Made by a program: the position numbers and the translations under genes. The notes under the pieces are model-generated. The model was not told where the DNA came from. It did no database searches and saw nothing but the letters and a program-made list of their open reading frames with translations. From Catellatospora sp. KI3 (GTDB taxonomy: Bacteria; Actinomycetota; Actinomycetes; Mycobacteriales; Micromonosporaceae), in assembly GCF_029948125.1 (NCBI RefSeq), contig NZ_JASAMB010000002.1, positions 512,479 through 576,478 of the forward strand: DNA of 64,000 nucleotides, written 5' to 3'. Shown here one piece after another: positions 2,886 to 53,225 of this stretch. Within the stretch, counting starts at the first letter, position 1. The number at the start of each line of letters is the position of its first letter.

Positions 2886-3803
2886 TCAGGGCGTGATGCG
2901 GTCGGGGCGGGTGTACACGTTCATGGTCTGGCCGCGCAGGAAGCCGACCAGCGTCATCCCGGCCTCCTCGGCCAGGTCGACGGCGAGTGTGCTCGGCGCC
3001 GACACCGCCGCCAGCACCGGTATCCCGGCCAGCCACGCCTTCTGGGTCAGCTCGAAGCTGGCCCGACCGGAGACCAGCAGCACGTGCCCGGCCAGCGGCA
3101 GCCGCCCGGCCTGCAACGCGGCGCCGATCACCTTGTCCACGGCGTTGTGCCGCCCGACGTCCTCGCGCACGCTGACCAGCTCGCCGGCGGCCGTGAACAG
3201 CCCGGCCGCGTGCAGCCCGCCGGTGCGCTCGAACGTCCGCTGCGCCCTGCGCAGCCGGTCGGGCAGCTCGCCGAGCAGCGTCGCCGCGACGCGCAGCGGA
3301 TCGGCGGCCACGTCGTGCCGCGAGCGGACCCGGATCGCGTCGATGCTGGCCTTCCCGCACACCCCGCACGAGCTGGTGGTGTAGAAGTTCCGCTCCACCC
3401 CCGCGTCCGGCGCCGCCACCTGATCGCCCAGCACCACGTCCACCACGTTGTACCCGCCGCCCGCCTCCTCCTCCGCCAACTCCTCCGTGGCGTTAAGAAG
3501 GGGCCCTTCACCTACGGAAAGCGATAAGAAGGGTCCCTTCCTTACCTCGGGGCCGGCGCAGAGTTGGGCGGTGAGCACGTCGCTGGGCGACGTGATGACG
3601 CCTTCGGTGAACAGGAAGCCCAGGGCCAGGTCGAGTTCGTCGCCGGGGGTGCGCATGGTGACGGCGAGCGGGCGGCGGGGGCGGCCGCGGTGGCCGACCC
3701 GGATCTCCAGCGGCTCCTCGGCGGCCAGGGCGTCCTGGCGGCGTACGGAGGTGCCGGAGAGGTCGATCCGGGTGACGGTGCGGCGGTCGCTGGCCCGGCC
3801 CAT
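2886..3803 (-). CDS. fdhD: Formate dehydrogenase accessory sulfurtransferase FdhD
   Basis: FdhD transfers sulfur to the molybdenum cofactor of formate dehydrogenase. The family's catalytic Cys motif is visible as SSCGVCGKAS, and the C-terminal nucleotide/Moco-binding segment is well conserved (DVGRHNAVDK, SGRASFE). The ATG overlaps the TGA of the upstream molybdoenzyme gene (ATGA-type overlap), so the two are translationally coupled. Oddly, residues of the loop between LCAGPEV and GGYNVVDVV include RKGPFLSLSVGEGPLLNA. These are encoded by a 57-bp palindromic repeat (3490-3546) sitting in frame. The 305-residue length is slightly above typical because of this insert. Confidence 0.95.
   Translation of the reverse strand: MGRASDRRTVTRIDLSGTSVRRQDALAAEEPLEIRVGHRGRPRRPLAVTMRTPGDELDLALGFLFTEGVITSPSDVLTAQLCAGPEVRKGPFLSLSVGEGPLLNATEELAEEEAGGGYNVVDVVLGDQVAAPDAGVERNFYTTSSCGVCGKASIDAIRVRSRHDVAADPLRVAATLLGELPDRLRRAQRTFERTGGLHAAGLFTAAGELVSVREDVGRHNAVDKVIGAALQAGRLPLAGHVLLVSGRASFELTQKAWLAGIPVLAAVSAPSTLAVDLAEEAGMTLVGFLRGQTMNVYTRPDRITP
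3490..3546. repeat. 57-bp palindromic element, copy A, inside fdhD
   Basis: The element is an inverted repeat made of two AAGGGNCCCTT palindromes about 33 bp apart, bounded by GCGTTAAGAAGG and CCTTCCTTACC. It is 57 bp (19 codons) and is read in frame by fdhD. Other copies lie at 10106, 40855 and 52658. Confidence 0.9.
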
Positions 3804-6085: not shown

Positions 6086-6187
6086 CTCACGTTTCCCGTG
6101 GTGCGTAGCCGCCGGTCGGCGCTTAGCCTGTGGCGGTCACACCGGCACCCCGGCCGGTGCGATTCCATCCTCTGGGGAGGACTCTCG

Positions 6188-6478: not shown

Positions 6479-6501
6479 CCAGCGCCGCACCGAATGTGAA
6501 C

Positions 6502-10003: not shown

Positions 10004-10065
10004 TGCAGTTTCGGGGAAACTGTCGGAATCTGCCCCAAGATTCGTGCACTTTCCCCGAAACTGCA
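10004..10065. repeat. 62-bp palindromic element (TGCAGTTTCGGGGAAA arms)
   Basis: Perfect 16-bp outer arms (TGCAGTTTCGGGGAAA at 10004-10019 and its complement at 10050-10065) enclose a second short stem, GAATC/GATTC. It is the only copy in the window, but its size and form resemble the other repeat families. Confidence 0.8.
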
Positions 10066-10105: not shown

Positions 10106-10162
10106 GCGTTAAGAGGGGGCCCTTCTACCTCGGAAAGCGATAAGAAGGGGCCCTTCCTTAGC
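10106..10162. repeat. 57-bp palindromic element, copy B, at the nei stop codon
   Basis: This is the same 57-bp architecture as the copy in fdhD. The TTA at 10158-10160, part of the element's terminal CCTTAGC, is the TAA stop codon of the minus-strand nei gene. Confidence 0.9.
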
Positions 10163-10967
10163 TCGGGGCGGGGGCGGGGGTGGGGGCGGGCTGGCAGTGG
10201 GGGCACCAGTAGGTGATGCGGTCGCCTTCGGTGTCCTTGCTGATGGGGGCGGCGCAGTTGCGGCAGGGGTGGGCGCGGCGGCCGTACACGTAGCTGGTCT
10301 CGCCGCGGCGCAGGGAGCCGGTGGTGGTCTGGGTCCAGCGGCCGACGTTGTGGGCGAGCAGGCGCTGGGCGAGGCCGACCAGGCCGGGCAGGTCGGGTAC
10401 GTCGCCGACCGGAGTCCACGGCCACACGCCGCGCAGGAACAGCACCTCGCACTTGTAGAGGTTGCCGATGCCGGCGAGGTTGCGCTGGTCCAGCAGGGCC
10501 GCGGCGACGGGTACGGCCGGGTCGCGGGTCAGGCGGCGTACCGCCTCGGCGGGGTCCCAGTCGGGGCCGAGCAGGTCGGGGCCGAGGTGGCCGACCAGGC
10601 GGTCCTCCTGGGCGGTGGGCACCAGGGCGAGATCGTGCAGGTGGAAGCCGACGGCGGTGCGGTCGGCGGTGCGCAGCACCACCCGGATGGTGTGCCCGGG
10701 GCGGGCGTTCCAGCGCTGGCCGGGAGAGTACACCCGCCAGGCGCCCTCCATCCGCAGGTGCGAGTGCAGGCTGAGGTCGCGGCCGCCCGCGGTGCGCAGG
10801 CGCAGCAGCAGGTGCTTGCCGCGGCTGACGGACTCGGCGACCTCGGCGCCGGTCAGGTCGACGGTGGCCAGCTGGGGCACCCGGAACTGGGAGCCGGTCA
10901 GGGTGCGCCCGACCAGCCCTTCGCGCAGCACCTGCGCGGTGTTGTAGACGGTGTCGCCCTCGGGCAT
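10158..10967 (-). CDS. nei: Endonuclease VIII / Fpg-type DNA glycosylase
   Basis: This bifunctional DNA glycosylase/AP lyase removes oxidised bases. It starts MPEGDT, giving the catalytic Pro2 and Glu3 after Met removal, and contains a helix-two-turn-helix segment (LLDQRNLAGIGNLYK). A C-terminal zinc finger, CRNC...WCPHC, is also present. PEGDT rather than PELPE points to the Nei (endonuclease VIII) branch. The tail is a Pro/Ala stretch ending at a TAA that belongs to a palindromic repeat, so the natural C-terminus may have been altered. A -10-like CAGTAT six bases before ATG suggests a leaderless start. Confidence 0.93.
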   Translation of the reverse strand: MPEGDTVYNTAQVLREGLVGRTLTGSQFRVPQLATVDLTGAEVAESVSRGKHLLLRLRTAGGRDLSLHSHLRMEGAWRVYSPGQRWNARPGHTIRVVLRTADRTAVGFHLHDLALVPTAQEDRLVGHLGPDLLGPDWDPAEAVRRLTRDPAVPVAAALLDQRNLAGIGNLYKCEVLFLRGVWPWTPVGDVPDLPGLVGLAQRLLAHNVGRWTQTTTGSLRRGETSYVYGRRAHPCRNCAAPISKDTEGDRITYWCPHCQPAPTPAPAPS

Positions 10968-28790: not shown

Positions 28791-30436
<1,646 letters not shown>

Positions 30437-36260: not shown

Positions 36261-36470
36261 CTACAGACAACCCGCTTACATAGATCAAGTCAACTATTTG
36301 TCGGTCAGATTCGTGACGCCGACGGCATTCTGCCCGAATCGACGGAGTACTGACAGGGACTTGCCCGCCCATGGCCATTGATCGCCGCCATTGGCTGACC
36401 GAAGCATGGCATGCAATGGCCTGCGCGGGACATCCCCGTCGCGGGCCGCTCATCCAGGGGAGGACGAGAG

Positions 36471-40823: not shown

Positions 40824-40854
40824 CCAGCACTCCCACTCCTCGCGTGTGAGGTGA

Positions 40855-40911
40855 GGTAAGGAAGGGCCCCTTCTTATCGCAATGCGATGTAGAAGGGGCC
40901 CTTCTTCACGC
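40855..40911. repeat. 57-bp palindromic element, copy C (intergenic)
   Basis: This is the same element as copies A, B and D; here it lies 31 bases past the protease stop and may act as its terminator hairpin. Confidence 0.88.
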
Positions 40912-40941
40912 CGATCGCGTGAGGGTGTCGGAGGGCGGGGC

Positions 40942-40947
40942 TAGCGT
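40942..40947 (+). promoter_or_regulatory. -10 element, leaderless promoter of the YjbR gene
   Basis: TAGCGT lies seven bases before ATG 40955. Confidence 0.45.
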
Positions 40948-40954
40948 TCGGGGC

Positions 40955-41302
40955 ATGGTGACGCTGGAGGACGTACGGGAGATCACGCGGACGCTGCCGC
41001 GCACCGAGGAGGCGCTGGTCCGCGACTACGTGAAGTTCCGCGTCCGGGGCATCGTCTACGCCTCGGTCTCGCCCGACGAGACGATCATGGGGTTCGGCTT
41101 CCCGAAGGAGGAGCGGGCCGACCTGGTCGCCGCCGAGCCGGCGAAGTTCCTGCTGCCCCGCGAGTCGGACCTGCGGTTCCACTGGGTGCAGGCGCGGCTG
41201 GCCGCCCTCGACGAGCAGGAGCTCTACGAGCTGGTCACCGAGGCGTGGCGGATGACGGTCCCGAAGAAGGTCGCCGCCGCCCGGCTGGGCGAGCGGCGCT
41301 GA
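40955..41302 (+). CDS. MmcQ/YjbR-family protein
   Basis: This 115-residue protein of the MmcQ/YjbR family (CyaY-like fold, often called DNA-binding) has the family's opening LEDVREITRTLPRTEE and the central KFRVRGIVYASVSPDE. The molecular role of the family is not established. ATG 40955 has a leaderless -10. Confidence 0.85.
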   Translation: MVTLEDVREITRTLPRTEEALVRDYVKFRVRGIVYASVSPDETIMGFGFPKEERADLVAAEPAKFLLPRESDLRFHWVQARLAALDEQELYELVTEAWRMTVPKKVAAARLGERR

Positions 41303-41323
41303 GGCGGGCGCGGCCGGCGCCGC

Positions 41324-41821
41324 TCAGTGGACGTAGCCCTTCTCCTTGCGTACGTCGAGCACGGCGGCGGGTGCCTGGTGGCCGAAGTCGAACACCTTGG
41401 CCCAGGTCGGCGTGATGGAGATCCGGACCAGCTGGTCCCATAGACTCGTGACGTGCGCCTCCCAGTTGGCGTACTGCACGCTGTCGCGCAGCAGCCGGCG
41501 CCCGGTGTCGAGGTAGTCGTCCGGGATGCCGTCGACCAGGGTCAGCGTGGCGGTGCCGCGCACCATCAGCAGCCGGGGCGGCTGGCTCTCGGTGTCGACG
41601 GTGAGCGCCACCTTCGGGTTGGCCCGCAGCGCCGCGACCTTGGGTGAGGCGGGCAGGGTGAAGATCTCGAACGTGTCGCCGTTGAAGATGAAGCTGATGG
41701 GGATGACGCGAGGGTCGCCGTCGGGGCCGATGTAGGCCATCCGTACCGGGATCGCGGCGTTGAGCAGGTCTTTCGCGATCGGATCATTATTAAGTAGATA
41801 GTGTGCCTTATCGCTTCCCAT
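41324..41821 (-). CDS. PPOX-fold (pyridoxamine 5'-phosphate oxidase-like) protein
   Basis: The 165-residue protein matches the split-barrel FMN/F420-binding family: VRMAYIGPDGDPRVIPISFIFNGDTF and VALTVDTESQPPRLLMVRGTATL. It could use FMN or F420 to reduce an unknown substrate. The first codons are unusually AT-rich for this genome (NNDPIAK region). TACAGT six bases before ATG 41821 fits a leaderless start. Confidence 0.85.
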   Translation of the reverse strand: MGSDKAHYLLNNDPIAKDLLNAAIPVRMAYIGPDGDPRVIPISFIFNGDTFEIFTLPASPKVAALRANPKVALTVDTESQPPRLLMVRGTATLTLVDGIPDDYLDTGRRLLRDSVQYANWEAHVTSLWDQLVRISITPTWAKVFDFGHQAPAAVLDVRKEKGYVH

Positions 41822-41827
41822 CGGGCG

Positions 41828-41833
41828 ACTGTA
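41828..41833 (-). promoter_or_regulatory. -10 element, leaderless promoter of the PPOX gene
   Basis: TACAGT on the minus strand lies six bases before ATG 41821. Confidence 0.4.
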
Positions 41834-41911
41834 AGCGACTAGGGCCCCACTCAGCGTACGCAAAGATGCCGTGTCGCAGCACGGGAAGTACTTTCCATTG
41901 AAGGTCTTCGA

Positions 41912-41988
41912 TGGTAGGGCCGGCGGGACTCGAACCCGCACTGGCGCGGACCTAAACCGCGTGCCTCTGCCAATTGGGCTACGGCCCC
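41912..41988 (-). tRNA. tRNA with UAG anticodon but short variable arm (Leu-like)
   Basis: The 77-base cloverleaf is complete: acceptor GGGGCCG/CGGCCCT (first pair G-U), D arm GCCC...AGGC, anticodon stem CGCGG/CCGCG with loop TTTAGGT (anticodon UAG, reading CUA leucine codons), and T arm GCGGG-TTCGAGT-CCCGC with encoded CCA. The variable region is only five bases (CCAGT), whereas bacterial tRNA-Leu normally has a long variable arm. The loop TTTAGGT is, from memory, the same as in canonical actinobacterial tRNA-Leu(UAG). The amino acid is therefore uncertain. Confidence 0.85.
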
Positions 41989-42062
41989 AGTGCGAACATT
42001 GTCGCCCATCGCCGGACCCGGCGCTGACCCAGGTCCGGCGCGTCGGCCGCGACACGCGGCGA

Positions 42063-42539
42063 TCAGCTCAGCTTGAGGTCCCGGCGCAGCTTGGCGACGT
42101 GCCCGGTGGCCTTCACGTTGTAGAAGGCGTGCTCGATCTGCCCCTGCTCGTCGATCACGAAGGTGGAGCGGATCACGCCCTGCACGGTCTTGCCGTAGTT
42201 CTTCTTCTCGCCGTACGCGCCATACGCCTTGAGCACGGCCTTGTCCTCGTCGCCGACCAGCGGGAACGTCAGCGCGTCGCGCTCGGTGAACTTGGCGAGC
42301 TTGGCGGGGGCGTCGGGGGAGATGCCGACGACCGCGTAGCCCTGCGCGGTCAGCGAGGCGACCGAGTCGCGGAAGTCGCAGGCCTGGGTGGTGCAGCCGG
42401 GGGTCATCGCCGCGGGGTACGCGTACAGGATGACCTTCTTGCCGCGCAGGCTGGACAGGGCGAGCGTGCCGCCGTCGGCGGTGGGCAGGGTGAAGTCGGG
42501 GGCGGTGTCCCCGGGCGCGAGCCGAGCGTTCTCCGTCAC
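42063..42539 (-). CDS. bcp: Thioredoxin-dependent peroxiredoxin (Bcp/PrxQ type)
   Basis: This enzyme reduces hydroperoxides. The 158-residue AhpC/TSA-fold protein has the peroxidatic Cys in TPGCTTQACDFRDS, with a resolving Cys five residues later. The core PGDTAPDFTLPTADGGTL is typical. TAGGGT six bases before GTG 42539 indicates a leaderless transcript. Confidence 0.94.
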   Translation of the reverse strand: MTENARLAPGDTAPDFTLPTADGGTLALSSLRGKKVILYAYPAAMTPGCTTQACDFRDSVASLTAQGYAVVGISPDAPAKLAKFTERDALTFPLVGDEDKAVLKAYGAYGEKKNYGKTVQGVIRSTFVIDEQGQIEHAFYNVKATGHVAKLRRDLKLS

Positions 42540-42545
42540 CTCGCC

Positions 42546-42551
42546 ACCCTA
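42546..42551 (-). promoter_or_regulatory. -10 element, leaderless promoter of bcp
   Basis: TAGGGT on the minus strand lies six bases before GTG 42539. Confidence 0.5.
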
Positions 42552-42632
42552 GCCCGCTGCCGAGTTCCGCCCGGCCGTTGACCCATCCATCGCGGCTCGT
42601 GTTCCGAAGCACCTTCGGTAGTGCCATTCTTA

Positions 42633-42649
42633 TTGCAACTAGTTTGCAA
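42633..42649. promoter_or_regulatory. Nur-box-like operator upstream of the ECF transporter
   Basis: TTGCAA-CTAGT-TTGCAA matches the form tTGCaa-N5-ttGCAA that I recall as the Streptomyces nickel-regulator (Nur) box. It overlaps the promoter of the metal-transporter operon, as expected for repression by nickel. Confidence 0.7.
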
Positions 42650-42656
42650 CAAGGCA

Positions 42657-42662
42657 TAGGCT
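42657..42662 (+). promoter_or_regulatory. -10 element of the nickel/cobalt transporter operon
   Basis: TAGGCT lies six bases before GTG 42669 and 18 bases after the first TTGCAA half of the Nur-like box, which may serve as -35. Confidence 0.5.
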
Positions 42663-42668
42663 GGCCCG

Positions 42669-43724
42669 GTGAATCACGCCATGCACATCAGCAACGGCAT
42701 CATCGACGGCCCTGTGTCCCTGGCGTACGGCGTGGTGGCCGTCGCACTTCTCGCGTTCTGCCTGGGCAAGGCGCGCCACGACCTCAGCGACCGCCTCGCC
42801 CCGATGGCGGGGCTGGTCGCGGCGTTCATCTTCGCGGTGCAGATGCTGAACTTCCCGGTGCTGCCCGGCGTCAGCGGCCACCTGCTCGGCGGCGCCCTGG
42901 CCGCGGCACTGGTCGGCCCGTGGGTCGGCGCCCTGTGCGTGTCCGTGGTGCTCATCGTGCAGGCGCTGGTCTTCGCCGACGGCGGCATCAGCGCCCTGGG
43001 CCTCAACATCGCCAACATGGCGCTGCTGGGCACCGCCGTCGGCTTCGGCGTGCTGATCGCCCTGATGAAGCTGCTGCCGCGTACCGCCGCGGGGCTTGGC
43101 CTGGCCGTGTTCCTCGCCTCGATCCTCAGCGTCACGCTGGCCTCGCAGGGCTTCGTGCTGCAGTACCTCCTCGGCGGCGACGTGCCGCTGACCATCGGCT
43201 ACGGCCAGATCTCGCTCACCATGGCCGGGGTGCACGTGCTCATCGGCATCGGCGAGGGCCTGATCGCGGCGGTCACCGTCACCACCGTCGCCAAGGTCCG
43301 ACCCGACCTGGTGTACGCCCTGCGCGGCCGGCGCCTCGACCCGGCCGTGGGCGGCGGCTCGACCCGCAAGTTCGTGCTCGCGGGCCTCGGCGTGGCCGCG
43401 GTCCTGGCCGGCGGCGTCAGCTACCTGGCTTCCGGCTCGCCGGACGGCCTCGACGCGACCACCCGCGAAGGCTGCACCGTCGACGCGGCCGGGGAGATCA
43501 CCGGTGGCAGCTGCATCGCGCAGCGGGCCGCCGACCACGAGCTCGGCGGCTCCGTCCTGGCCGACTACGGCGTCAAGGGACTCGACGGCTCCACCGGCCT
43601 GGCGGGCCTGATCGGCGTGGTGCTCACGTTCGCCATCGGACTGGGCGTGTTCTGGCTGGTCCGGCGCCGTCGGGCGGCGGCCGGGGCGCAGGCGCCGGCC
43701 GAGCGGGTCGGCGCGGGGAACTGA
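42669..43724 (+). CDS. cbiM: ECF metal transporter substrate-binding subunit (CbiM/NikM with PDGLE domain)
   Basis: This is the membrane S component of a nickel/cobalt energy-coupling-factor transporter. It has seven or so hydrophobic helices, then a PDGLE (CbiN-like) C-terminal domain (SPDGLDATTREGC). The motif MHISNGIIDGP matches CbiM/NikM N-termini, whose Met1/His2 bind the metal. That makes ATG 42681 (Met-His) functionally attractive, although the promoter fits a leaderless GTG 42669. It is followed by cbiQ and cbiO in an operon; nickel is favoured by the Nur-like box. Confidence 0.92.
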   Translation: MNHAMHISNGIIDGPVSLAYGVVAVALLAFCLGKARHDLSDRLAPMAGLVAAFIFAVQMLNFPVLPGVSGHLLGGALAAALVGPWVGALCVSVVLIVQALVFADGGISALGLNIANMALLGTAVGFGVLIALMKLLPRTAAGLGLAVFLASILSVTLASQGFVLQYLLGGDVPLTIGYGQISLTMAGVHVLIGIGEGLIAAVTVTTVAKVRPDLVYALRGRRLDPAVGGGSTRKFVLAGLGVAAVLAGGVSYLASGSPDGLDATTREGCTVDAAGEITGGSCIAQRAADHELGGSVLADYGVKGLDGSTGLAGLIGVVLTFAIGLGVFWLVRRRRAAAGAQAPAERVGAGN

Positions 43725-43728
43725 GCCG

Positions 43729-44499
43729 ATGGGCGCCGGACACACCCACCCGATGTACGTGCACAGCCACTCGGCCGTGCACCACCTCGCCCCCGAGGTG
43801 AAGATCGCCGCGGCGGTGCTGTTCACCGTCGTGGTCGTCGCGACGCCCCGCGAGCTGCTGGGCGCGTTCGCGGCGTACGCGGTGCTGATCCTGGCCCTCG
43901 CCGTGCTGGCCCGGATCCCGGCCGGCTGGCTGACCAAGCGCAGCCTCATCGAGCTGCCGTTCGTGGCCACCGCGCTGCTGCTGCCGTTCTTCGCCTCCGG
44001 CCCGCGCACCGACGTGCTCGGGCTGAGCGTGGCCGTCGAAGGACTGTGGGGCGGCTGGAACATCCTGGTCAAAGGCACGCTCGGCGTGCTCATCGCGCTG
44101 CTGCTGGCGGGCACCACGCCCGCCCGCGACATCCTGATCGGGCTCGACCGGCTGCGCACGCCCCAGGCGATCACGCAGATCGCGCTGTTCATGCTGCGCT
44201 ACCTCGACGTGCTCGCCGACGAGGCGCGGCGGATGCGGCTGGCCCGCATCTCGCGCCTGGACGACCCCCGCTTCCTGTGGCAGCTGCGCGGCTTCGCCTC
44301 CGGCCTCGGCACGCTGTTCCTGCGCGCGTTCGAGCGCGGCGAGCGGGTCTACCTGGCCATGCGCTCGCGCGGCTACACCGGGCGGCTGCCCGCCGCCCTG
44401 CACGAGGGCAGCGCCGCCACCGCGGGCCAGTGGGTGGCCGGCGCGATCGTGCCCGCGGCGGCCGCCGCGGTGCTCCTGCTCGGAAGGTTCGGGGTATGA
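43729..44499 (+). CDS. cbiQ: ECF transporter transmembrane coupling subunit
   Basis: This T component joins the S protein to the ATPase. The 256-residue membrane protein has four to five hydrophobic helices and the family's coupling motifs RRMRLARIS and YLAMRSRGYTG. His-rich N-terminus HTHPMYVHSHSAVHH may help gather metal. It starts five bases after the cbiM stop and overlaps cbiO by an ATGA. Confidence 0.92.
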   Translation: MGAGHTHPMYVHSHSAVHHLAPEVKIAAAVLFTVVVVATPRELLGAFAAYAVLILALAVLARIPAGWLTKRSLIELPFVATALLLPFFASGPRTDVLGLSVAVEGLWGGWNILVKGTLGVLIALLLAGTTPARDILIGLDRLRTPQAITQIALFMLRYLDVLADEARRMRLARISRLDDPRFLWQLRGFASGLGTLFLRAFERGERVYLAMRSRGYTGRLPAALHEGSAATAGQWVAGAIVPAAAAAVLLLGRFGV

Positions 44500-45263
44500 C
44501 CACCGCCGCACTGCACCTCGACGGCGTCCAGTACGCCTACCCCGACGGCCACCAGGCCCTGCACGGCGTCGACCTGCGCGTCGAACCCGGCGAGCGGGTC
44601 GCCCTGCTCGGCCCGAACGGCGCCGGCAAGACCACCCTGGTCCTGCACCTCAACGGCATCCTGCCCGGCACGGGCGCGATCGGGGCGCAGGGCGCGGTGC
44701 GGGTCGGGGACCGTACCGTCGACCCGCGCGACCGGGCCGGGCTCGCCGAGATCCGGCGCCGGGTCGGCATCGTCTTCCAGGACCCCGACGACCAGCTGTT
44801 CCTGCCCACGGTCGGCGAGGACGTGGCGTTCGGCCCGGCCAACCTCGGCCTGCGCGGGGCCGAGCTGGCCGCACGGGTGGACGAGGCCCTGGCCGCCGTG
44901 GGCATGGCCGACATGAAGTCGCGCGCCCCGCACCACCTGTCGCTGGGGCAGCGCCGCCGCGTCGCCGTCGCCACGGTGCTGGCGATGCGCCCCGACCTGC
45001 TGGTGCTCGACGAACCGTCGTCGAACCTCGATCCGCAGGCGCGCCGGGAACTGGCCGAGATCATCCTCGGGCTGGACGTGACGGTGCTGATGGTCACCCA
45101 CGACCTGCCGTACGCGCTCCAGCTGTGCGAACGGTCGGTGATCCTCGACAGCGGCCGCATCGTCGCCGACGCCCCCACCCGCGACCTGCTCGCCGACGAC
45201 GCCCTGCTCACCAAGCACCGCCTCGAACTCCCCTACGGCTTCGCCATCCCGACGGCCCCCTGA
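44496..45263 (+). CDS. cbiO: ECF transporter ATPase
   Basis: This ATP-binding subunit powers the transporter. The 255-residue protein has Walker A GPNGAGKTT, the Q-loop FQDPDDQLF, signature LSLGQRRR, Walker B LLVLDEP, and the switch His in MVTHDL. It is translationally coupled to cbiQ. Confidence 0.94.
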   Translation: MTTAALHLDGVQYAYPDGHQALHGVDLRVEPGERVALLGPNGAGKTTLVLHLNGILPGTGAIGAQGAVRVGDRTVDPRDRAGLAEIRRRVGIVFQDPDDQLFLPTVGEDVAFGPANLGLRGAELAARVDEALAAVGMADMKSRAPHHLSLGQRRRVAVATVLAMRPDLLVLDEPSSNLDPQARRELAEIILGLDVTVLMVTHDLPYALQLCERSVILDSGRIVADAPTRDLLADDALLTKHRLELPYGFAIPTAP

Positions 45264-45365
45264 CCCCTCCACCCAGCCCGGTCCCTGCGGATGTCCGCTC
45301 AGTCAGGGTTCGGGGCTGGCGGCTGCGGCCCGTGTTCGGACCGCGGGTCGCGATCTTCAGGGCTA

Positions 45366-45426
45366 GATCGCTGGCTGCGGTCGAACTGTGGGGCTGAGGG
45401 GCCGGTTGTGACCGCAGGCAGTGATC
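45366..45426. repeat. 61-bp GATC-bounded palindromic element, copy 3
   Basis: The element has GATC ends, TGCGGTCGAA on the left and TGTGACCGCA on the right. Partial half-sites flank it (ending near 45354 and starting at 45437). This is the densest part of the 367-base gap between cbiO and the convergent membrane-protein gene. Confidence 0.8.
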
Positions 45427-45482
45427 TTCGCGAGGAGATCACTGCCTGCGGACGAAAGGCGCGGCGTGCTGCGGCCCTGCCC

Positions 45483-45564
45483 GGCGCCCGGCTGGCGGCG
45501 GGGTGCGGCGCCCGGCTGGCGGCGGGGCGTGGCGCCCGGCTGGCGGCGGGGCGTGGCGCCCGGC
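45483..45564. repeat. 24-bp tandem repeat, 3.4 copies
   Basis: The unit is GGCGCCCGGCTGGCGGCGGG plus four bases. Copies 2 and 3 are identical; copy 1 differs by two bases. The reading frame LAAGRGAR is open but looks like low-complexity noise. Confidence 0.9.
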
Positions 45565-45569
45565 TTTTC

Positions 45570-45634
45570 ATAGACGTTGGCCTATTACGTGCAAGACGAT
45601 CAATCGTCAGTCGACGTAATAGGCCAGTGTCTAT
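45570..45634. repeat. 65-bp palindromic element at a stop codon
   Basis: Arms of 21 bp (19 match) surround a centre containing a second hairpin, GACGAT/ATCGTC. It shares length and outer arms with the element in hutF. CTA at 45631-45633 is the TAG stop of the membrane-protein gene. Confidence 0.9.
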
Positions 45635-46761
45635 TTAAGGGGGTCGGTGGTGGCGGGAGTGGGTGCTCGTTCGGCAGTGGTGGGGGCGGGTGTCGGGGTG
45701 GGCGGGGTGGGGGTGAGGCCGCGGAGGCGGAGCATGCCGGCGGCGGCGACCCCGACGCCCAGTGAGATGACGACCGTGATGGCGATGCGGGCCAGGTCGT
45801 CGGAGGGCTTGCCGGACAGGGGCGGCTGCGGGGCGACGGAGCGGTGGAAGACCGCGGCGTTGACCATACCGGCGAACAGGCCCGTTGCCGCACCGCCCAG
45901 GGCCAGCGCGAAGTCGCCCGCGGCCTTGCGGGTCAGCGAGTAGACCCCGGCGGCGATCGCGGCGATCGCGCTGACGGCGGGCCACAGCTGCACCGTGAAC
46001 AGCTCGCCGAGGATGGACAGCACGGTGGTGTTCCCGGCGTCGATCTCGCGGCCGACCGCGTACGCCAGGGCGAGGGCGCCCGCGGTGATCGCGGCCAGCG
46101 CCAGCGTGACGGTGACCCAGCGCGGGCGGCGCGGGATGAAGCCGAGCAGCGCCACGAGCGCGGCCCCGGCGGCGGCCACGATCCACCAGGTCACCGGCGC
46201 GGGCGGCGGTACGTAGTCGAGGGTGCCGGACAGCCTCAGCGGGGTGACCTCGGTGCGCATCGGCACCGTCCACTCCTTGATCCGGCGCGGCTGGCCGGGC
46301 GCGGCCAGCACCTCGGGCGGGTCGACCGGCTCGGTCCAGATGACGCGCTGGTCGTGCCAGCGGTACACCGGATCGTCGCTGACCTTGCGCCACTCCGGCG
46401 GCAGCGTCGGGTCGGCGGTCGCGGGCGGGTCCACGTGCGCGATGGTGATGTTGAGGTACGTGGCGGGGGAGTGGATGTTCTCGTACACCCCGTCGGGGCG
46501 TACCTCCAGGTAGGGCTCGTTCTGGTAGCCCAGCACCTCGACCGGCTCGCCGCTGTGGTTGGTCAGCTGCAGCCGCGCCCCCGCCTCGATGCTGATCACC
46601 TCGAGGCCCGGCAGGTCCGGGCTGACCGTGATGGTGGTGCGGAAGTTGGTGGCGTCGGGCGCGTCGGCGCCGTGCGCGAAGGCGGGGGTGGCGGTGGCCA
46701 GGAGCGCGGCGAGCGCGGTCCCGAGGACCGCGCCCGCGCGTCGTACCAGGAGGGGTGTCAT
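45631..46761 (-). CDS. Secreted-domain membrane protein of the copper/redox cluster
   Basis: This 376-residue protein has a signal peptide ending AFAHG (about residue 30), an extracellular beta-rich domain to about residue 205, five hydrophobic helices, and a Thr/Pro-rich tail. The family is unnamed. A mature N-terminus with His next to the cleavage site (as in CopC and YcnI) and its position beside DsbA, MauE and CopCD suggest a copper or oxidase-assembly role. The stop codon lies in a palindromic repeat, so the tail may have been changed by it. Confidence 0.8.
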   Translation of the reverse strand: MTPLLVRRAGAVLGTALAALLATATPAFAHGADAPDATNFRTTITVSPDLPGLEVISIEAGARLQLTNHSGEPVEVLGYQNEPYLEVRPDGVYENIHSPATYLNITIAHVDPPATADPTLPPEWRKVSDDPVYRWHDQRVIWTEPVDPPEVLAAPGQPRRIKEWTVPMRTEVTPLRLSGTLDYVPPPAPVTWWIVAAAGAALVALLGFIPRRPRWVTVTLALAAITAGALALAYAVGREIDAGNTTVLSILGELFTVQLWPAVSAIAAIAAGVYSLTRKAAGDFALALGGAATGLFAGMVNAAVFHRSVAPQPPLSGKPSDDLARIAITVVISLGVGVAAAGMLRLRGLTPTPPTPTPAPTTAERAPTPATTDPLK

Positions 46762-46771
46762 CTGACCTGCT

Positions 46772-47506
46772 CTAACTTGCGGTGGGGGTGGGTCCCGTCC
46801 CGGACGCCGCGGCGACTGCCGCCGCGATGGCCGGGCCGGTGGCCTGGACCGGTTTGCCGTTCACCAGCACGGTAGGCGTACCGCTGACGCCGGCTTTGCC
46901 TGCCTCGGTGGTGACGTGGTCGGTCCAGTTCACGAACTTCTTGTCCTTGACGCACTGGGCGAACGGGTCGCCGAGTCCGACGGTCTTGCCGAGCGCGATC
47001 AGGTCGTCGTCGCTGGGTCCGGCGGTGCCCTCGGCGGGCTGCGCGGCGAACAGCGCGTCGGCGTACTCGGTGAACCTGCCCTCGTCGGCGGCGCAGCCGG
47101 CGGCGGCCGACGAGCGGGTGGAGTACTGGTTGGTGGAGGCGCCGTCGAGGTACGCCACCGGGTGGGTGACCAGGGTGATCTTGCCGGTGTCGGCGAGCTG
47201 CTTGATCTGGGCCGCGTAGTCGTCGTGGAAGGCCTTGCAGTGCGGGCACAGGAAGTCGACGTACTCGTCGACGGTGACCGGGCCGGAGCCGGTGACCACG
47301 CCGCTGCCCGCGCTGTTGGTGTTGCGCGGGGCGGTGAACTCGCCGCTCTTGCTGGACGCGTAGACGCCCCAGCCGATCAGACCGGCGATGACCAGCGCCG
47401 ATACGGCGGCGATGGAGATGTACAGGGTGCGCTTGCGGCGCTTCTCGGCCGCGATCTGCTCGCGTACCAGCCGCGCCGCCGCGTTCTGGTCCTTCCGGCT
47501 GCTCAT
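46772..47506 (-). CDS. Membrane-anchored DsbA-like thiol-disulfide protein
   Basis: This 244-residue protein has one N-terminal membrane helix (about 28-50) and an extracytoplasmic thioredoxin-like domain with the active site FLCPHCKAF (CPHC, as in DsbA). The cis-Pro loop is SGTPTV. It probably oxidises or isomerises disulfides outside the membrane, fed by the MauE-like protein encoded just upstream. Confidence 0.92.
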   Translation of the reverse strand: MSSRKDQNAAARLVREQIAAEKRRKRTLYISIAAVSALVIAGLIGWGVYASSKSGEFTAPRNTNSAGSGVVTGSGPVTVDEYVDFLCPHCKAFHDDYAAQIKQLADTGKITLVTHPVAYLDGASTNQYSTRSSAAAGCAADEGRFTEYADALFAAQPAEGTAGPSDDDLIALGKTVGLGDPFAQCVKDKKFVNWTDHVTTEAGKAGVSGTPTVLVNGKPVQATGPAIAAAVAAASGTGPTPTAS

Positions 47507-47524
47507 GCCGTCACCGCCGGGACG

Positions 47525-48085
47525 TCACGGCCGCCTCTGGCGTGCCGCGGGAGCGGCAGGCTCGTCTTCCCCGTTGTCATCGTCATACTCCTCAAACGCT
47601 TCGTCCGTGGTGGACAGTTGATCCAGCCGTGCGTCGAGGGAGAAACGGCTGAGCGGGTAGATGATCAAAAAGACGGCCATCGCCAGGAAGGCCGCATCCC
47701 GGAGCAGCTCCGGAACGTAGTTGGGGGTGACTCCGGGCGGCAGCACGCCGCCCTTGCTGAAGCAGCCGCAGTCGATGTTGAGACCGCGGGCCCAGGCCGA
47801 GGAGATGCCCGCGATGAACGCGACCATCATCACGGCGCTGATCCAGCCGGCCAGGCGGGTGGCCAGGCCGACGAGCAGGAGCAGGCCGAGGGCGATCTCC
47901 ACGAACGGCTGCGCCGCCCCGAAGATCATCGCAGCGTCGTACGGCAGGATCTGGTACGCGTTGACCGCACGCCCCGACGCCGCCAGGTCCCCGACCTTGA
48001 GCAGCCCGGCGGTGAGGAAGACGCCCGCGAGGGCGAGCCGTACCACCAGGCTCACCCAGGGCTGCGCCCGGTGCCAACTGCTCAT
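47525..48085 (-). CDS. MauE/DoxX-family redox membrane protein
   Basis: This 186-residue protein has four hydrophobic helices of the MauE/DoxX type and a Cys pair in NIDCGCFSKGG that could relay electrons to the DsbA-like partner. GGAGGAGAC precedes ATG 48085. It lies between the ECF sigma and DsbA-like genes in one transcription unit. Confidence 0.88.
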   Translation of the reverse strand: MSSWHRAQPWVSLVVRLALAGVFLTAGLLKVGDLAASGRAVNAYQILPYDAAMIFGAAQPFVEIALGLLLLVGLATRLAGWISAVMMVAFIAGISSAWARGLNIDCGCFSKGGVLPPGVTPNYVPELLRDAAFLAMAVFLIIYPLSRFSLDARLDQLSTTDEAFEEYDDDNGEDEPAAPAARQRRP

Positions 48086-48102
48086 GTCTCCTCCTCGCGC
48101 CA

Positions 48103-48666
48103 TTAGGCGGCTAGTGCGGTAACGACGTCGGCCACCAAGTCGGCGCGGGCGCGCGCGACCCGGGACCGGATCGTGCCGACCGGCACCTCCAGCACCGCCG
48201 CCGCCTGCTCGTACGGCAGCCCCAGCAGCTGGGTCAGCACGAACGCCTCCCGGCGCTCCGGTGACAGCCGCTCCAGCAGCTGCGCCGCGCTGATCTGGCC
48301 GGCCGGGTCGGGGTGCGGCCCGCCCGTCGCCGCCTCGCCCGCCAGACGGGTGTCCAGCCGGCGCTGCCTTACCACCGTACGCACATGGTCGGCGCAGGCG
48401 CGGCGGGCGATTCCCAGCAGCCACGTGCGCACCGTGGACCTGCCCTCGAAGCCGGGCAGCGCCCGGAACGCCCGCAGGTAGGTCTCCTGGGTCAGATCGT
48501 CCGCGCTGCCCGGATCGACCAGGGCCGCCACGAACCGCCACACCTCGGCCTGGGTGGCCCGCACCAGCGCGGCCTGCGCCAGCGGGTCCCCGCCGCGCGC
48601 CGCGAGCGCCCACGCGGTGGCCGGATCGGCGACCGGGGCGGCGGCATCGGATGGCTGGGGGGACAC
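48103..48666 (-). CDS. ECF RNA polymerase sigma factor
   Basis: This 187-residue sigma factor has region 2 (DLTQETYLRAFRALPGFEGRS) and region 4 (AFVLTQLLGLPYEQAAAVLEVPVGTIRSRVARAR) and lacks region 3. Its anti-sigma partner is encoded divergently, 122 bases away. GTG 48666 is chosen from a leaderless -10; a TTG at 48675 would add three residues. It probably controls the copper/redox genes on both sides. Confidence 0.93.
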   Translation of the reverse strand: MSPQPSDAAAPVADPATAWALAARGGDPLAQAALVRATQAEVWRFVAALVDPGSADDLTQETYLRAFRALPGFEGRSTVRTWLLGIARRACADHVRTVVRQRRLDTRLAGEAATGGPHPDPAGQISAAQLLERLSPERREAFVLTQLLGLPYEQAAAVLEVPVGTIRSRVARARADLVADVVTALAA

Positions 48667-48674
48667 GGGGAGCA

Positions 48675-48680
48675 AGCCTA
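48675..48680 (-). promoter_or_regulatory. -10 element of the sigma factor gene
   Basis: TAGGCT on the minus strand lies eight bases before GTG 48666. Confidence 0.4.
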
Positions 48681-48788
48681 ACGGCCGATCCGGCTGTCAC
48701 GGAACGGTCACGCAGTGCGTGTCCCACGCCACGCTGATTCCTTCACGCCGCCGGGAACCGGACGGCCCCGAGCGGCGACTACCCGCCC

Positions 48789-49430
48789 ATGAACATCTGC
48801 GACGAGGTACGCGAAGGGCTCTCGGCCCGGCTGGACGGTGAGGAAGAAGGCTGGGCGGCGACGTCGGCGGCGTCCCTGGACGGGCACCTGGCCGGCTGCG
48901 CCGGCTGCCGCACCTGGCTGCGCGCCGCGGAGCAGCTGACCCGCACGGTACGGCTGCAGGCCGTCGACGTGCCCGACCTCACCGCCCCGATCCTGGCCGC
49001 GGTCGCCGCCGAGCAGCACGCCGCGCAGCGGACCCGCCGCGAGCAGGCGCACGGCCGCCGCCAGATCCTGCGCGTCGCGCTGGCCGCCACCGCCGGGGTG
49101 CAGCTGCTGCTGGCGCTGCCCGCGCTGCTGGCCGGGGTGGGCGAGCTGCACACCGGCCGGGAGGCGGCCTCGTTCGACATCGCGCTGGCGGTCGGGTTCG
49201 CGCTGGCCGCCTGGCGCCCCGAGCGGGCGCGGGCGTTCCTGCCGGTCGCCTTCGTGCTGGCGGTCTGCCTGATCCTGACCAGCGCCTTCGACGTGGCCGA
49301 CGGCATGACCGCGATCGCGCACGAGATCGGCCACCTGGCGGCGCTGGCGCAGGCGGGGCTGCTGTGGGCACTGAGCCGTACGCCCGACATCTCCCGTTCG
49401 GGGCACCGCCCGGCTACGGTCGCCGGGTGA
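48789..49430 (+). CDS. Zinc-finger anti-sigma factor, membrane-bound
   Basis: The 213-residue protein starts with a putative zinc-binding anti-sigma domain (Cys near residue 4, then HLAGCAGC) and has four or so hydrophobic helices in its C-terminal half. It would hold the divergently encoded ECF sigma at the membrane until a signal (perhaps copper or thiol stress) releases it. It overlaps copCD by one base pair of codons (GTGA). Confidence 0.88.
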   Translation: MNICDEVREGLSARLDGEEEGWAATSAASLDGHLAGCAGCRTWLRAAEQLTRTVRLQAVDVPDLTAPILAAVAAEQHAAQRTRREQAHGRRQILRVALAATAGVQLLLALPALLAGVGELHTGREAASFDIALAVGFALAAWRPERARAFLPVAFVLAVCLILTSAFDVADGMTAIAHEIGHLAALAQAGLLWALSRTPDISRSGHRPATVAG

Positions 49431-51082
49431 CCGATGTGACGTCCCCTCGATTTCTCGCGCGCCCCGTGCGCGCGCTGCTGGCGCTGGCGGCGTTCGCGCT
49501 GCTGCTGGTGCTGCCCGCCAGCCCGGCGTACGCCCACGCCGCACTGCTGCGCACCAACCCCCCGGCCGGTTCGGTCGTGCCGCAGGGACCGGCGGAGGTG
49601 CAGCTCACCTTCAGCGAGCCGATCACCCCGGTCACCGACAAGATCCGCATCATCGGCCCGGACGGCAAGCGGGCCGACCAGGGCACCCCCACCGTCAACG
49701 GCAACGTGCTGCGCATCGGCATGCGCGACAAGGCCCTGCCCGGGACGTACCTGGTCAGCTACCGGGTGATCTCGGCCGACAGCCACCCGGTGCCCGGCGG
49801 CTTCACGTTCTCCGTCGGCGCCCCCTCGGCCACCCCGACCGCCGAGGTGGCCGACGAGGTCGACCAGACCATCCAGACGCTGATCGCCGTCGCCAAGGTC
49901 GTCGGGTACGTCGGCCTGATCCTGATCGTCGGCCCGGCACTGGTGCTGGCGCTGCTGTGGCCCGGCCGCCTGGACCGGCGCGGCCCGCGCAAGCTGGTCT
50001 GGGCCGGGTTCGGCCTGGTCGCCCTGTCCACCCTGGCCGGGCTCTACCTGCAGGCGCCCTACACCACCGGAGCCTCCCTGTTCGGGGCCACCGCGAGCGA
50101 CCTCGGCGACGTGCTCGGCAGCCAGTACGGCATCGCGCTGCTGGTCCGGCTGGCGTGCCTGGCGGTCGCCGCGATCCTGGTGCGCCCGCTGCTGGCCGGG
50201 CGCGACGGCCCGGTCGACCGGGTGCTGCTGCTGATCGTCGCCGGGATCGGCGCGCTGACCTGGCCGCTGGCCGGGCACCCGGCCGCCTCGCCGGTGCCGC
50301 CGGTCTCGGTCGCCGTCGACGCGCTGCACCTGGCCGGGGCCGCGGTCTGGTTCGGCGGCCTGCTCATGCTCGTGGCGTACCTGCTGCGCCAGGCCGACGC
50401 CCGCGAGCTCGGCGCGATCCTGCCGATCTGGTCCCGGTGGGCGGCGCTGGCCATGTCCACGGTGCTGCTGGCGGGCGTCGTGTCCGGGCTGATCCAGGTC
50501 GGCACACCGGCGGCGCTGGTGCAGACCACGTACGGCCGGGTGCTGCTGGTCAAGGTCGGCCTGGTCGCGCTCGCCCTGGCCGCCGCCTGGCTGGCCCGCC
50601 GCCACGTGCTCAACGGCGCCGCCGACAACCCGAAGCCGCTGCGCAAGGTGGTCGCGGTGGAGCTGTCGATCGCGGCGGTGGTCCTGGCGCTGACCGGGGC
50701 GCTGACCCAGACCACCCCGGCCCGCACCGCCGCCGAGACCACCCAGGGCGTCGCCCAGCAGCAGCTCTACTCGACCACCCTCACCACCTCGCTGTACCGG
50801 CTCCAGGTCGAGATCGACCCGGGCAAGCTCGGCGACAACCTGGTCCACCTGTACGCCTACACCCCGGCGGGCGACCCGCTGCCGGTCGTCGAGTGGAAGG
50901 CGTCGGCGGCGCTGCCCGCGGCGGGCATCGAGCCGATCTCGTTCACCCTGCTGAAGCTGACCGACAACCACGCCAGCGGGCAGGTGTCCCTGCCGACCAA
51001 GGGCGACTGGCAGCTGAAGTTCACGCTCCGTACCTCCGAAATCGATCAAGCCTCGGTCACCGCCACGGTGCCGATCTCGTAG
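49427..51082 (+). CDS. copCD: CopC-CopD fusion copper-resistance protein
   Basis: This 551-residue protein begins with a signal peptide ending AYAH, so the mature CopC domain (about residues 36-125) would start with the Cu-binding His. It continues as an eight-helix CopD domain (about 145-440) and a C-terminal beta domain. It handles periplasmic-side copper and its import. Its GTG overlaps the anti-sigma stop, and ycnI follows 34 bases later. Confidence 0.93.
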   Translation: MTDVTSPRFLARPVRALLALAAFALLLVLPASPAYAHAALLRTNPPAGSVVPQGPAEVQLTFSEPITPVTDKIRIIGPDGKRADQGTPTVNGNVLRIGMRDKALPGTYLVSYRVISADSHPVPGGFTFSVGAPSATPTAEVADEVDQTIQTLIAVAKVVGYVGLILIVGPALVLALLWPGRLDRRGPRKLVWAGFGLVALSTLAGLYLQAPYTTGASLFGATASDLGDVLGSQYGIALLVRLACLAVAAILVRPLLAGRDGPVDRVLLLIVAGIGALTWPLAGHPAASPVPPVSVAVDALHLAGAAVWFGGLLMLVAYLLRQADARELGAILPIWSRWAALAMSTVLLAGVVSGLIQVGTPAALVQTTYGRVLLVKVGLVALALAAAWLARRHVLNGAADNPKPLRKVVAVELSIAAVVLALTGALTQTTPARTAAETTQGVAQQQLYSTTLTTSLYRLQVEIDPGKLGDNLVHLYAYTPAGDPLPVVEWKASAALPAAGIEPISFTLLKLTDNHASGQVSLPTKGDWQLKFTLRTSEIDQASVTATVPIS

Positions 51083-51116
51083 CGCTCGCGCCGCGAGCCG
51101 TAGGAAAGGTCCAGAC

Positions 51117-51821
51117 ATGAAGACGATGCGTCGCCTCGGCGTGGTGGCCGCGGCCGTGCTCGGCCTGGTGGCCGTCGCGGTGCCCGCCTCGGCCCACGTG
51201 ACGGTCAACCCGGGCACGGCGGTGCAGGGCGGCTACGCCCGGCTGGCGTTCCGGGTGCCGACCGAGTCGGACACCGACAGCACCACCAAGCTGGAGGTGC
51301 ACCTGCCCGACGACGCCCCGGTCGCCTCGGTGATGACCTCACCGGTGCCCGGCTGGACCGCCACCGTGACCAAGCGCAAGCTGGACCAGCCCATCGAGGT
51401 GCACGGCAGCCCCGTCAGCGAGGTCGTCTCCGTGGTGACCTGGACCGCCTCGGCCGGCGCCGGGATCAAGCCGGGCCAGTTCCAGGAGTTCCCGATCTCG
51501 CTGGGCCCGCTGCCGAAGGTCGACCAGATGGTCTTCAAGACGCTGCAGACGTACTCCGACGGCACCGTGGTGCGGTGGATCGACGAGCCGGCCAACGACG
51601 GCACCGAGGCGGAGAGCCCGGCCCCGGTGCTGAAGCTGACTGCCGCGGCCCCGGGCGAGGCCGCGCCGACCACGGCGGCCACCGTCCCGCTGGCCCAGGA
51701 GGACAAGGCCGACGGCGGCAGCGGCTGGACCGGCGTCGCCGGGCTGGTCGCGGGCGTGCTCGCGCTCATCGTGGCCGGTCTGGCGCTGGCCCGTACCCGC
51801 AAGCCCGCCGGCACGGCATGA
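51117..51821 (+). CDS. ycnI: YcnI-family (DUF1775) copper-binding membrane protein
   Basis: The 234-residue protein has a signal peptide ending ASA, then a mature N-terminal His (HVTVNPGTAVQGG) with the conserved Trp downstream (GWTATV), which form the Cu(II) site known for YcnI. One C-terminal membrane helix (about 205-227) anchors it. It likely works with CopCD just upstream. Confidence 0.93.
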   Translation: MKTMRRLGVVAAAVLGLVAVAVPASAHVTVNPGTAVQGGYARLAFRVPTESDTDSTTKLEVHLPDDAPVASVMTSPVPGWTATVTKRKLDQPIEVHGSPVSEVVSVVTWTASAGAGIKPGQFQEFPISLGPLPKVDQMVFKTLQTYSDGTVVRWIDEPANDGTEAESPAPVLKLTAAAPGEAAPTTAATVPLAQEDKADGGSGWTGVAGLVAGVLALIVAGLALARTRKPAGTA

Positions 51822-51834
51822 CCGGTAGCGGACC

Positions 51835-51872
51835 CACACCGCAGGTGGTGTGACCACACCACCTGCGGTGTG
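51835..51872. terminator. Perfect 38-bp palindrome after ycnI
   Basis: Two 18-base arms (CACACCGCAGGTGGTGTG and its complement) are separated by AC. It lies 13 bases past the ycnI stop; it may be a terminator or an operator. Confidence 0.75.
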
Positions 51873-51888
51873 ACCTTCTGAGTGACCA

Positions 51889-51921
51889 GGGCCGGGCCCC
51901 GCATCTGCGGGTGCCCGGCCC
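51889..51921 (+). terminator. Second hairpin after ycnI
   Basis: GGGCCGGGC/GCCCGGCCC with an inner CCCGCA/TGCGGG stem follows the palindrome. Confidence 0.55.
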
Positions 51922-52004
51922 GCGTTGTCCCCGGTGGAACGGCGCCGCCCCCGCCTACCCGCGGGAGGTCCGTCGGCGGCCGCCCGGTCGGGAGGGACAC
52001 GCGG

Positions 52005-53225
52005 ATGCGCTCGCTGCGGTGGATGGTCGGCCTGCTCGCCCTGCTGGTGGCGATCCCGGCCGCGGCCGCCGGGGTGGCCGCCTGGTGGGTGATGCGCCAC
52101 CCGAGCCCGGACGGGGCCTTCCACGCCGACCTCGCGCCGATCGAGCGCGCCGACCGGGTGCTGGTCGTGCCGGACCTGGACGCGCTGCTGCGCCGCGACG
52201 CGCCGTACGTCCGGGTGGGGCAGACCACGCTGCGGCTGAGCGCCAGCTCCGGCGGTACCCCCGCGTTCCTGGGCGTGGCCGAGCCGGGCCAGGTCGCGGC
52301 CTACCTCGCCGGGGTGCGCTACACCGAGCTCGCGCAGGTGCAGCTGGGCCGGGGCGTGCTGCCGGTGCGCACCGCCCGGGTGGACGCCCAGGGCGGCGAG
52401 CCGGGGGACCCGCAGGCGCAGGGCATCTGGCAGCGGCAGGGGCTGGGCTCGCTGTCGTGGCGGCCGAGCGAGGACCGCAGCCGCCGGGTCGCGCTGGTCA
52501 TCGTCCTGCGCGACGGTACGGCCACCGCCGGCCCCCACACCGCCCGGCTGGAGGCCGCCCTGCACGCCGACTGGCTGGGGACCGCCTCGTGGGGGCTGCT
52601 GATCTTCGCCATCGCCGTCCTCACCCTCGGCTTCGTCCTCCTCGCCTGGCCCGGCTCCGAAAGGAAGGGCCCCTTCCCATCGCATTCCGACGAACAAGGG
52701 CCCCTTCTTAACGGGGCGCTGCCCGCCAGCCGGGTGTCGACGGTGGAGTTCGTGCGGGTCGGGAGCGGGGGCGCGAGCGGGGGTGGTGGCGGCGGACCGG
52801 CCGACAGGCGGTCGGCGCCGATCGTGCCGGGGCTGGCCCGGGACCGTGCCGCCGAGGTGACGGCGGCCATGCCCGGCCCCGGCGCCGTCGAGCCGCGGGC
52901 GGCCGGGCAGGCGTGGCCCGGGTCGGCGGGGCGGACCGCGCGGCTGCCGCTGCAGCCGGTGGCGCCGGACGAGCTGCCCTGGGCGGGCCTGCCGCACCGG
53001 GGCGCGCCGCCGGTCGCCGGGGTCGTGTTCCGGGCGGGGGCGCACGGCGGCCCCGCACCGGTGGCCGCGCCGTCGGACCTGGTCTGGCCGCCGCGCCGCC
53101 CCGCCGAGCCGCCCGCCACCGCGCCGGTCCGCGAGGTGGTGACCGAGCAGCTGCCGCCGGTGCCGTACCTGCCGCGCCCCGCCTGCACGCTGCGGCTGGA
53201 CCGGGACCGCCTGGCCGCCCGCTGA
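52005..53225 (+). CDS. Single-pass membrane protein with Pro-rich tail and repeat insert
   Basis: The 406-residue protein has an N-terminal hydrophobic helix, an extracellular domain of about 180 residues, a second helix (GLLIFAIAVLTLGFVLLAW) and a Pro/Ala/Gly-rich cytoplasmic tail. No family is recognised. Right after the second helix the residues ERKGPFPSHS...GPLLNG are encoded by copy D of the 57-bp palindromic element. GGGAGGG precedes ATG 52005. Confidence 0.75.
   Translation: MRSLRWMVGLLALLVAIPAAAAGVAAWWVMRHPSPDGAFHADLAPIERADRVLVVPDLDALLRRDAPYVRVGQTTLRLSASSGGTPAFLGVAEPGQVAAYLAGVRYTELAQVQLGRGVLPVRTARVDAQGGEPGDPQAQGIWQRQGLGSLSWRPSEDRSRRVALVIVLRDGTATAGPHTARLEAALHADWLGTASWGLLIFAIAVLTLGFVLLAWPGSERKGPFPSHSDEQGPLLNGALPASRVSTVEFVRVGSGGASGGGGGGPADRRSAPIVPGLARDRAAEVTAAMPGPGAVEPRAAGQAWPGSAGRTARLPLQPVAPDELPWAGLPHRGAPPVAGVVFRAGAHGGPAPVAAPSDLVWPPRRPAEPPATAPVREVVTEQLPPVPYLPRPACTLRLDRDRLAAR
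52658..52714. repeat. 57-bp palindromic element, copy D, inside a membrane-protein gene
   Basis: Read in the same frame and same orientation relative to the gene as the fdhD copy (K-G-P-F...G-P-L-L-N). Confidence 0.88.

Follow-up and report, generated by a model that had tools for sequence, protein, structure and literature searches.

The four copies of a palindromic element found in a 64,000-nucleotide stretch of the Catellatospora sp. KI3 genome (the window, meaning the whole stretch analyzed) are part of a genome-wide dispersed repeat family of the Micromonosporaceae. We put a probability of roughly two in three on the reading that the element is a REP- or REPIN-like repeat that would serve as a gene-end hairpin, as a terminator and/or in mRNA protection, and that once spread and is now kept.

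Four copies in the window

A preliminary description had placed copies at positions 3490, 10106, 40855, and 52658, and all four were recovered there as matrix matches. On the reverse strand, the copy at 3490 to 3547 lies in frame inside fdhD (2886 to 3803, reverse strand; FdhD-NarQ family, PF02634), and the copy at 10106 to 10163 provides the TAA stop codon of an Fpg/Nei-type DNA glycosylase gene (10158 to 10967, reverse strand). On the forward strand, the copy at 40854 to 40911 is situated about 31 nt past the stop codon of a subtilase/kelch protein gene (36411 to 40823, forward strand), and the copy at 52657 to 52714 is in frame within an open reading frame with no Pfam match (52005 to 53225, forward strand); the limits of this frame and of fdhD are those of a home-made caller. 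These relations to genes agree with the preliminary description. Its claim that all copies share one orientation relative to the gene holds for the window's four, each of which is codirectional with its gene; beyond the window the bias is strong but not absolute.

With up to one mismatch allowed, AAGGGNCCCTT matched nine times in the window (chance expectation, 0.68), eight of them within the four copies. One palindrome of the copy at 10106 carries one mismatch. The ninth, an isolated match to AAGGGCCCCTT at 29379 to 29389, has no partner arm and is not an element.

The element is predicted to fold as one long hairpin

The consensus for the KI3 genome reads GWAAGG-AAGGGNCCCTT-CTTATCGCTTTCCGTAGTAG-AAGGGNCCCTT-CTTAAC. 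The two palindromes previously described are present, but both are arms of a single inverted repeat of about 57 nt. All 27 pairs found in 864 kb of the KI3 genome have the same 31-bp spacing, so that the architecture is indeed fixed, whereas the figure of exactly 57 bp depends on the chosen ends.

We rejected a model of two separate local hairpins. Position 11 varies without local compensation at -1, whereas core pairs 6-35 and 11-30 compensate from arm to arm, and a single long hairpin was predicted for 188 of 189 elements gathered. Of these 189 elements, 147 have C-G and 36 have A-T at pair 6-35; at pair 11-30, 142 have C-G, 11 have G-C, and 2 have A-T, with the remainder mostly unpaired. 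Counted as cells, which are nonindependent events, the arms of the same element were 87.8% paired compared with 87.3% when arms were swapped within a genome; this effect is small, although none of 500 shuffles reached the observed value. Swapping across genomes gave 85.0%, clearly below the same-element figure. On the sense strand of the gene, G.T cells outnumbered A.C cells (207 versus 48 in the 189 elements, likewise nonindependent), which agrees with the expectation for a structure formed on that strand. The better-folding strand was the sense strand in 131 elements and the antisense strand in 56. Within the KI3 genome, however, the antisense strand gave the better fold in 17 of 27 cases, which counts against a sense-strand structure.

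A spacing of 31 bp corresponds to about three helical turns. Because the palindromes always keep this distance, the element might instead act at the DNA level, as a site bound by a nucleoid protein or by DNA-uptake machinery. Excerpts of PMC2397512 supply a precedent in the Neisseria uptake sequences, dispersed short repeats whose inverted pairs double as terminators; the present family, by contrast, has the pair itself as its invariable unit, at the spacing given above. We regard a DNA-level site as very improbable, because the core varies while arm pairing persists, G.T cells exceed A.C cells, and the copies are oriented relative to genes and placed at stop codons, as described below.

Copy number and distribution

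The pattern AAGGNNNCCTT-N20-AAGGNNNCCTT had 182 exact matches in the KI3 genome and 215 when one mismatch was permitted, with none in the control. Applied to 864 kb of KI3 sequence, a matrix derived from the 27 paired copies detected 28 elements, and it gave no hit once the sequence was reversed. Searching the whole genome and relatives for the palindrome pair, a check proposed in the preliminary description, thus gave about 200 copies in KI3 and carriers across genera of the Micromonosporaceae.

A GTDB scan with the exact left-arm pattern returned at least 71 stretches, and among the matches listed all came from Catellatospora, Plantactinospora, or Micromonospora. Half of the pattern, with up to three mismatches, matched in 34 of 150 family genomes and in 7 of 44 genera (control, 0); carriers had between 1 and 207 matches, distributed unevenly within genera. 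Exact full-core counts were 249 in G051, 263 in G016, 152 in G129, 141 in G058, 113 in G010, 84 in G031, 41 in G123, 37 in G118, and 36 in G036, and all controls gave 0. A sample of 200 genomes from the order included about 171 from outside the family, and 1 to 4 matches were found in 9 of them. Six such places were inspected: five contained a different motif, and the sixth came from a genome with 10 matches in its reversed control.

The 189 distinct elements analyzed are a nonrandom collection. Those of KI3, G133, and G118 came from tiling and the GTDB loci from the matches listed for the exact left-arm pattern, and the tiles of G010, G123, and G016 were picked for containing listed copies.

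A second dispersed palindromic repeat, GCAGTTTCSGGGAAASTGCA, is found at positions 10004 to 10065 of the window, and several of its pairs are 41 bp apart. With up to two mismatches, it matched 34 times in C1:1-400000 and 19 times in C12:1-400000 of KI3 and once in the window.

Position and orientation relative to genes

Gene boundaries were taken from a home-made codon-usage caller. Orientation could be assigned to 183 elements, which represent six or more genera; the other 6 of the 189, with unclear orientation, were left out. The bias relative to gene strand and stop codons that the preliminary description had suggested for the window proved real in these 183. Only 12 of them lie inside genes, 11 codirectional and 1 antidirectional (P = 0.006). 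For KI3, 4 of 28 copies are inside genes, all codirectional, and 21 of the 24 extragenic copies are placed after a codirectional gene.

Among the 171 extragenic elements, both flanking genes were called for 147, and 24 were set aside. Same-strand gaps held 50 elements oriented along the genes and 18 opposed to them (P = 1.3e-4). Convergent gaps accounted for 71 of the 147; here the left end was closer to its stop codon in 54 cases and the right end in 16, with one tie (54:16, P = 6e-6). Only eight of the 147 were in divergent gaps. Relative to 475 gaps of the KI3 genome, the only genome used as baseline, convergent gaps were in excess (P = 4e-11) and divergent gaps in deficit (P = 1e-8). When KI3 elements alone were compared with KI3 gaps, the corresponding values were P = 0.007 and P = 0.02.

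Placement at the stop codon is close. Of 121 left ends, 98 were within 15 nt of a codirectional stop codon, with a median distance of 3 nt, and 23 elements end the gene with a TAA of their own. Of 89 right ends, 37 had a facing stop codon no more than 15 nt away. G010 is an exception, with two elements along and five against the genes in same-strand gaps and six of the eight divergent cases.

Some elements occur as close pairs in opposite orientation, such as those at 13491 and 13750 of locus L259 (G123) and at C1:551897 and 551999 of KI3. Each element of the G123 pair is 3' of its own convergent gene; judging by sequence, we take these genes to be galT-like and icd-like.

Exchange with other hairpins at single gene ends

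To follow individual gene ends, we used inhA and pepA, taking for each the 30 best-scoring loci among 61 genomes, all of them in Micromonospora, which represent the nearest relatives. Downstream of inhA, the element was present at 17 of the 30 loci and missing from 13. Folding of the 65 nt past the stop codon gave similar mean energies, -39.7 with the element and -39.5 without it. Two of the 13 loci stand out: that of G190 resembles a decayed copy, and that of G189 has no strong hairpin within the folded 65 nt. At the pepA end, a strong hairpin was predicted in all 30 loci; the element was present in eight, and G164 carried a variant under the cut.

Compensation between arms was also apparent at this one orthologous inhA site. 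Its elements (n = 16) had 89.1% of cells paired compared with 84.6% after shuffling, where none of 500 shuffles was as high. Both sides had changed in 8 of 19 pairs, and sliding the partner lowered pairing to 51 to 62%. G149, which has one exact full-core match genome-wide, has kept a paired variant after inhA.

Comparison of 11 genomes across genera extended this picture. At inhA, G058 and G113 had the element beside the stop codon and G036 had it at a greater distance; G010 carried a paired variant, six genomes had other strong hairpins, and G031 had a weak structure. At pepA, the element was present in G036 and other strong hairpins in four genomes; five Catellatospora genomes and G031 showed no strong hairpin within 65 nt. 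The pepA 3' ends of two Catellatospora genomes, G133 and G118 (L341 and L343), contain a different long, AT-richer hairpin with a stem around CTATCTAGAGGAC, and related sequence is visible at the KI3 pepA locus (L342).

Hairpins past stop codons are common in KI3 genes that lack the element. The z score was below -2 for 38% of the convergent genes (n = 185) and 33% of the same-strand genes (n = 259), compared with in-gene controls of 3% and 6%, respectively. Such hairpins started at a median of 4 nt past the stop codon (306 genes), against 3 nt with the element (19 genes), both values being without a shuffle control.

These distances bear on a translation-level role, in which a hairpin at the stop codon would stall terminating ribosomes. 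Excerpts of PMC12306157 report such stalling for Escherichia coli REPs less than 16 nt from the stop codon, and the present element resembles them in forming a hairpin within 15 nt of it. The proportions differ, however, since 446 of 4,072 predicted E. coli REPs are that close, compared with 98 of 121 left ends here. By this analogy stalling might operate, but we consider it improbable as the explanation of the element: even with no shuffle control, the similar medians of 4 and 3 nt indicate that the distance is not element specific, and stalling does not predict the excess in convergent gaps.

Site history and mobility

The preliminary description had proposed that the elements are mobile. 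Sites were largely common to several species. The fdhD site was occupied in 8 and empty in 3 of 11 Catellatospora genomes, with copies of the GGGNCCC type in KI3 and Catellatospora tritici and mostly of the GGGCACC type in relatives. Of 14 KI3 elements tried against C. tritici, 7 were collinear: 5 intact, 1 half deleted, and 1 absent. Against G118, 9 of 14 were collinear, with 5 sites occupied, 1 short remnant, and 3 absent; the five occupied sites in G118 all had the GGGCACC type, although one of them contained an inner insert and another was only a related hairpin. Two Micromonospora genomes with flanks 95 to 98% identical (G123 and G199) shared all four collinear sites of six G123 elements tried. 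At C12:240299, the GGGCCCC/GGGGCCC arms of KI3 correspond to GGGCACC/GGTGCCC in G133 and G118, a double change with pairing retained.

Neither clean empty sites nor target duplications were found at fdhD in the 11 Catellatospora genomes or in the comparisons of KI3 with C. tritici, KI3 with G118, and G123 with G199. Most of the copies compared are old, inherited residents rather than new insertions. A second palindrome, TCGTCGGCTSGCGTCAGCSAGACGA-like, is nested inside the element in fdhD of G016, G087, and G071 (L082, L086, and L089) and also at the G118 site corresponding to KI3 C12:372209.

RAYT-dependent mobilization was likewise unsupported. Y1_Tnp was detected in 41 of 150 family genomes but in none of KI3, G133, G010, G016, and G058, and it was not enriched in carriers (10 of 34, compared with 31 of 116 other genomes). 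The element was absent from 30 Y1 loci of 1.8 to 3.4 kb. A few family genomes have numerous Y1_Tnp genes (10 matches in G105, 12 in G121, 7 in G114, and 7 in G149); G121 has several equal-scoring copies, with no link to the element.

Mobility as a present activity thus gains no support from the common sites, the lack of a clean empty site, and the lack of a RAYT partner. The preliminary description had named ordinary sharing of sites among relatives, or a missing orientation bias, as outcomes that would speak against it; of these, the element was indeed found at matching positions in relatives, but the orientation bias held up. The copies must nonetheless have spread at some past time. An unlikely alternative is that a selfish REPIN-like element is still being copied by some enzyme and that gene ends are the least harmful places for insertion. 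Copies that are similar (86% mean pairwise identity in the KI3 sample) and number roughly 200 per genome, copy numbers that are uneven within genera, and species-specific core types would be expected of such an element. They have to be set against sites that are mostly common to several species, the orientation bias, the arm compensation at inhA, and the absence of a Y1 transposase association.

Relation to known repeats and terminators

The element combines features of several known classes. Short palindromes in high copy number, mostly extragenic near gene 3' ends, are typical of REPs in general, and the whole element is an inverted repeat, as the terminal inverted repeats of MITEs would require. 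REPINs are REP doublets that fold as hairpins and are linked with RAYT transposases (PMC3116915). According to the portions of that report used here, the element shares with them the inverted doublet, fixed spacing, hairpin fold, hundreds of copies, and mostly extragenic location; it differs in having no RAYT (Y1) association and in being oriented by the gene, whereas REPIN doublets are random in extragenic space. Because the architecture matches but the RAYT link does not, we call the element REPIN-like and do not class it as a REPIN.

Excerpts of PMC3733652 already report REPs at gene ends, REPs that give stop codons or lie in frame within genes, and a class, the CGTC REPs, with no dedicated transposase; those features alone are therefore not new. 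GTAG and CGTC REPs resemble the element as stem-loops at gene 3' ends that sometimes supply a stop codon or lie in frame, and CGTC REPs also in lacking a transposase. GTAG REPs have their motif beside the stem in most copies; in the present family, only 114 of 189 spacers contain GTAG, and the motif is not placed where the long hairpin has its foot. The same source cites Rickettsia palindromic elements, which are also palindromic repeats in frame within genes, but only 12 of the 183 oriented elements are intragenic here. The main text of PMC3733652 mentions none of the actinobacterial genera looked for. No match to the element's sequence strings or family was found in the literature searched by sequence string and word. 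Within that literature, what appears to be new is the family together with its clade, the rule of orientation, and the way other hairpins stand in for the element at single gene ends.

The stable hairpin past the stop codon that defines intrinsic terminators is present, as judged from predicted fold and position, and no U-tract follows it. Streptomyces intrinsic terminators are described in parts of PMC12207403 as long, stable hairpins with few U residues, with ends at a median of 66 to 76 nt past the coding sequence. The element is similar in its long stable hairpin with few U residues behind it and differs in being one sequence family repeated about 200 times. An element that starts about 5 nt past the stop codon ends near +60. 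A simple terminator scan of window positions 40000 to 55000 found at an element only a minor antisense stem-loop (52717 to 52700), within chance. No element was among the three window matches to Rfam covariance models above the gathering score, and the copy at 40854 gave only subthreshold matches to miRNA hairpins. The window also contains tRNAs at 41915 to 41988 and 57165 to 57237 and, at 61812 to 61888, a match to the SAH riboswitch family barely above the gathering score (37.8 versus 37 bits).

A probable gene-end hairpin that once spread

Under the preferred reading of a gene-end hairpin, the element would be transcribed with the preceding gene and fold into one long hairpin a few nucleotides past the stop codon. 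This hairpin would form or protect the mRNA 3' end, as a U-tract-poor terminator like those reported from high-GC Streptomyces and/or by blocking 3'-5' exonucleases. Stabilization of mRNA is reported for E. coli REPs located in 3' ends (excerpts of PMC12306157). Copies presumably spread once through some copying process and are now retained as gene-end hairpins, and those within genes would be read through in frame. The role in ending transcripts raised in the preliminary description is thus plausible, with the gene-end link seen in the 183 oriented elements and the function itself predicted. Between termination, mRNA stabilization, and ribosome stalling, sequence alone does not decide.

A more specific scenario, which we offer tentatively and give about one chance in three, is that a REPIN population that spread by itself without RAYT took over the terminator slot of ordinary genes and so supplies the family with ready-made transcript ends, that selection keeps the hairpin, and that the core type shifts species-wide at orthologous sites.

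A long-standing question is whether to regard REP-type repeats as selfish DNA or as functional parts of mRNA. The present family suggests a spread that did not involve the usual RAYT transposase. It also offers single gene ends that, in related species, carry the element, another hairpin, or a decayed copy, so that a terminator role can be tested by hairpin exchange.
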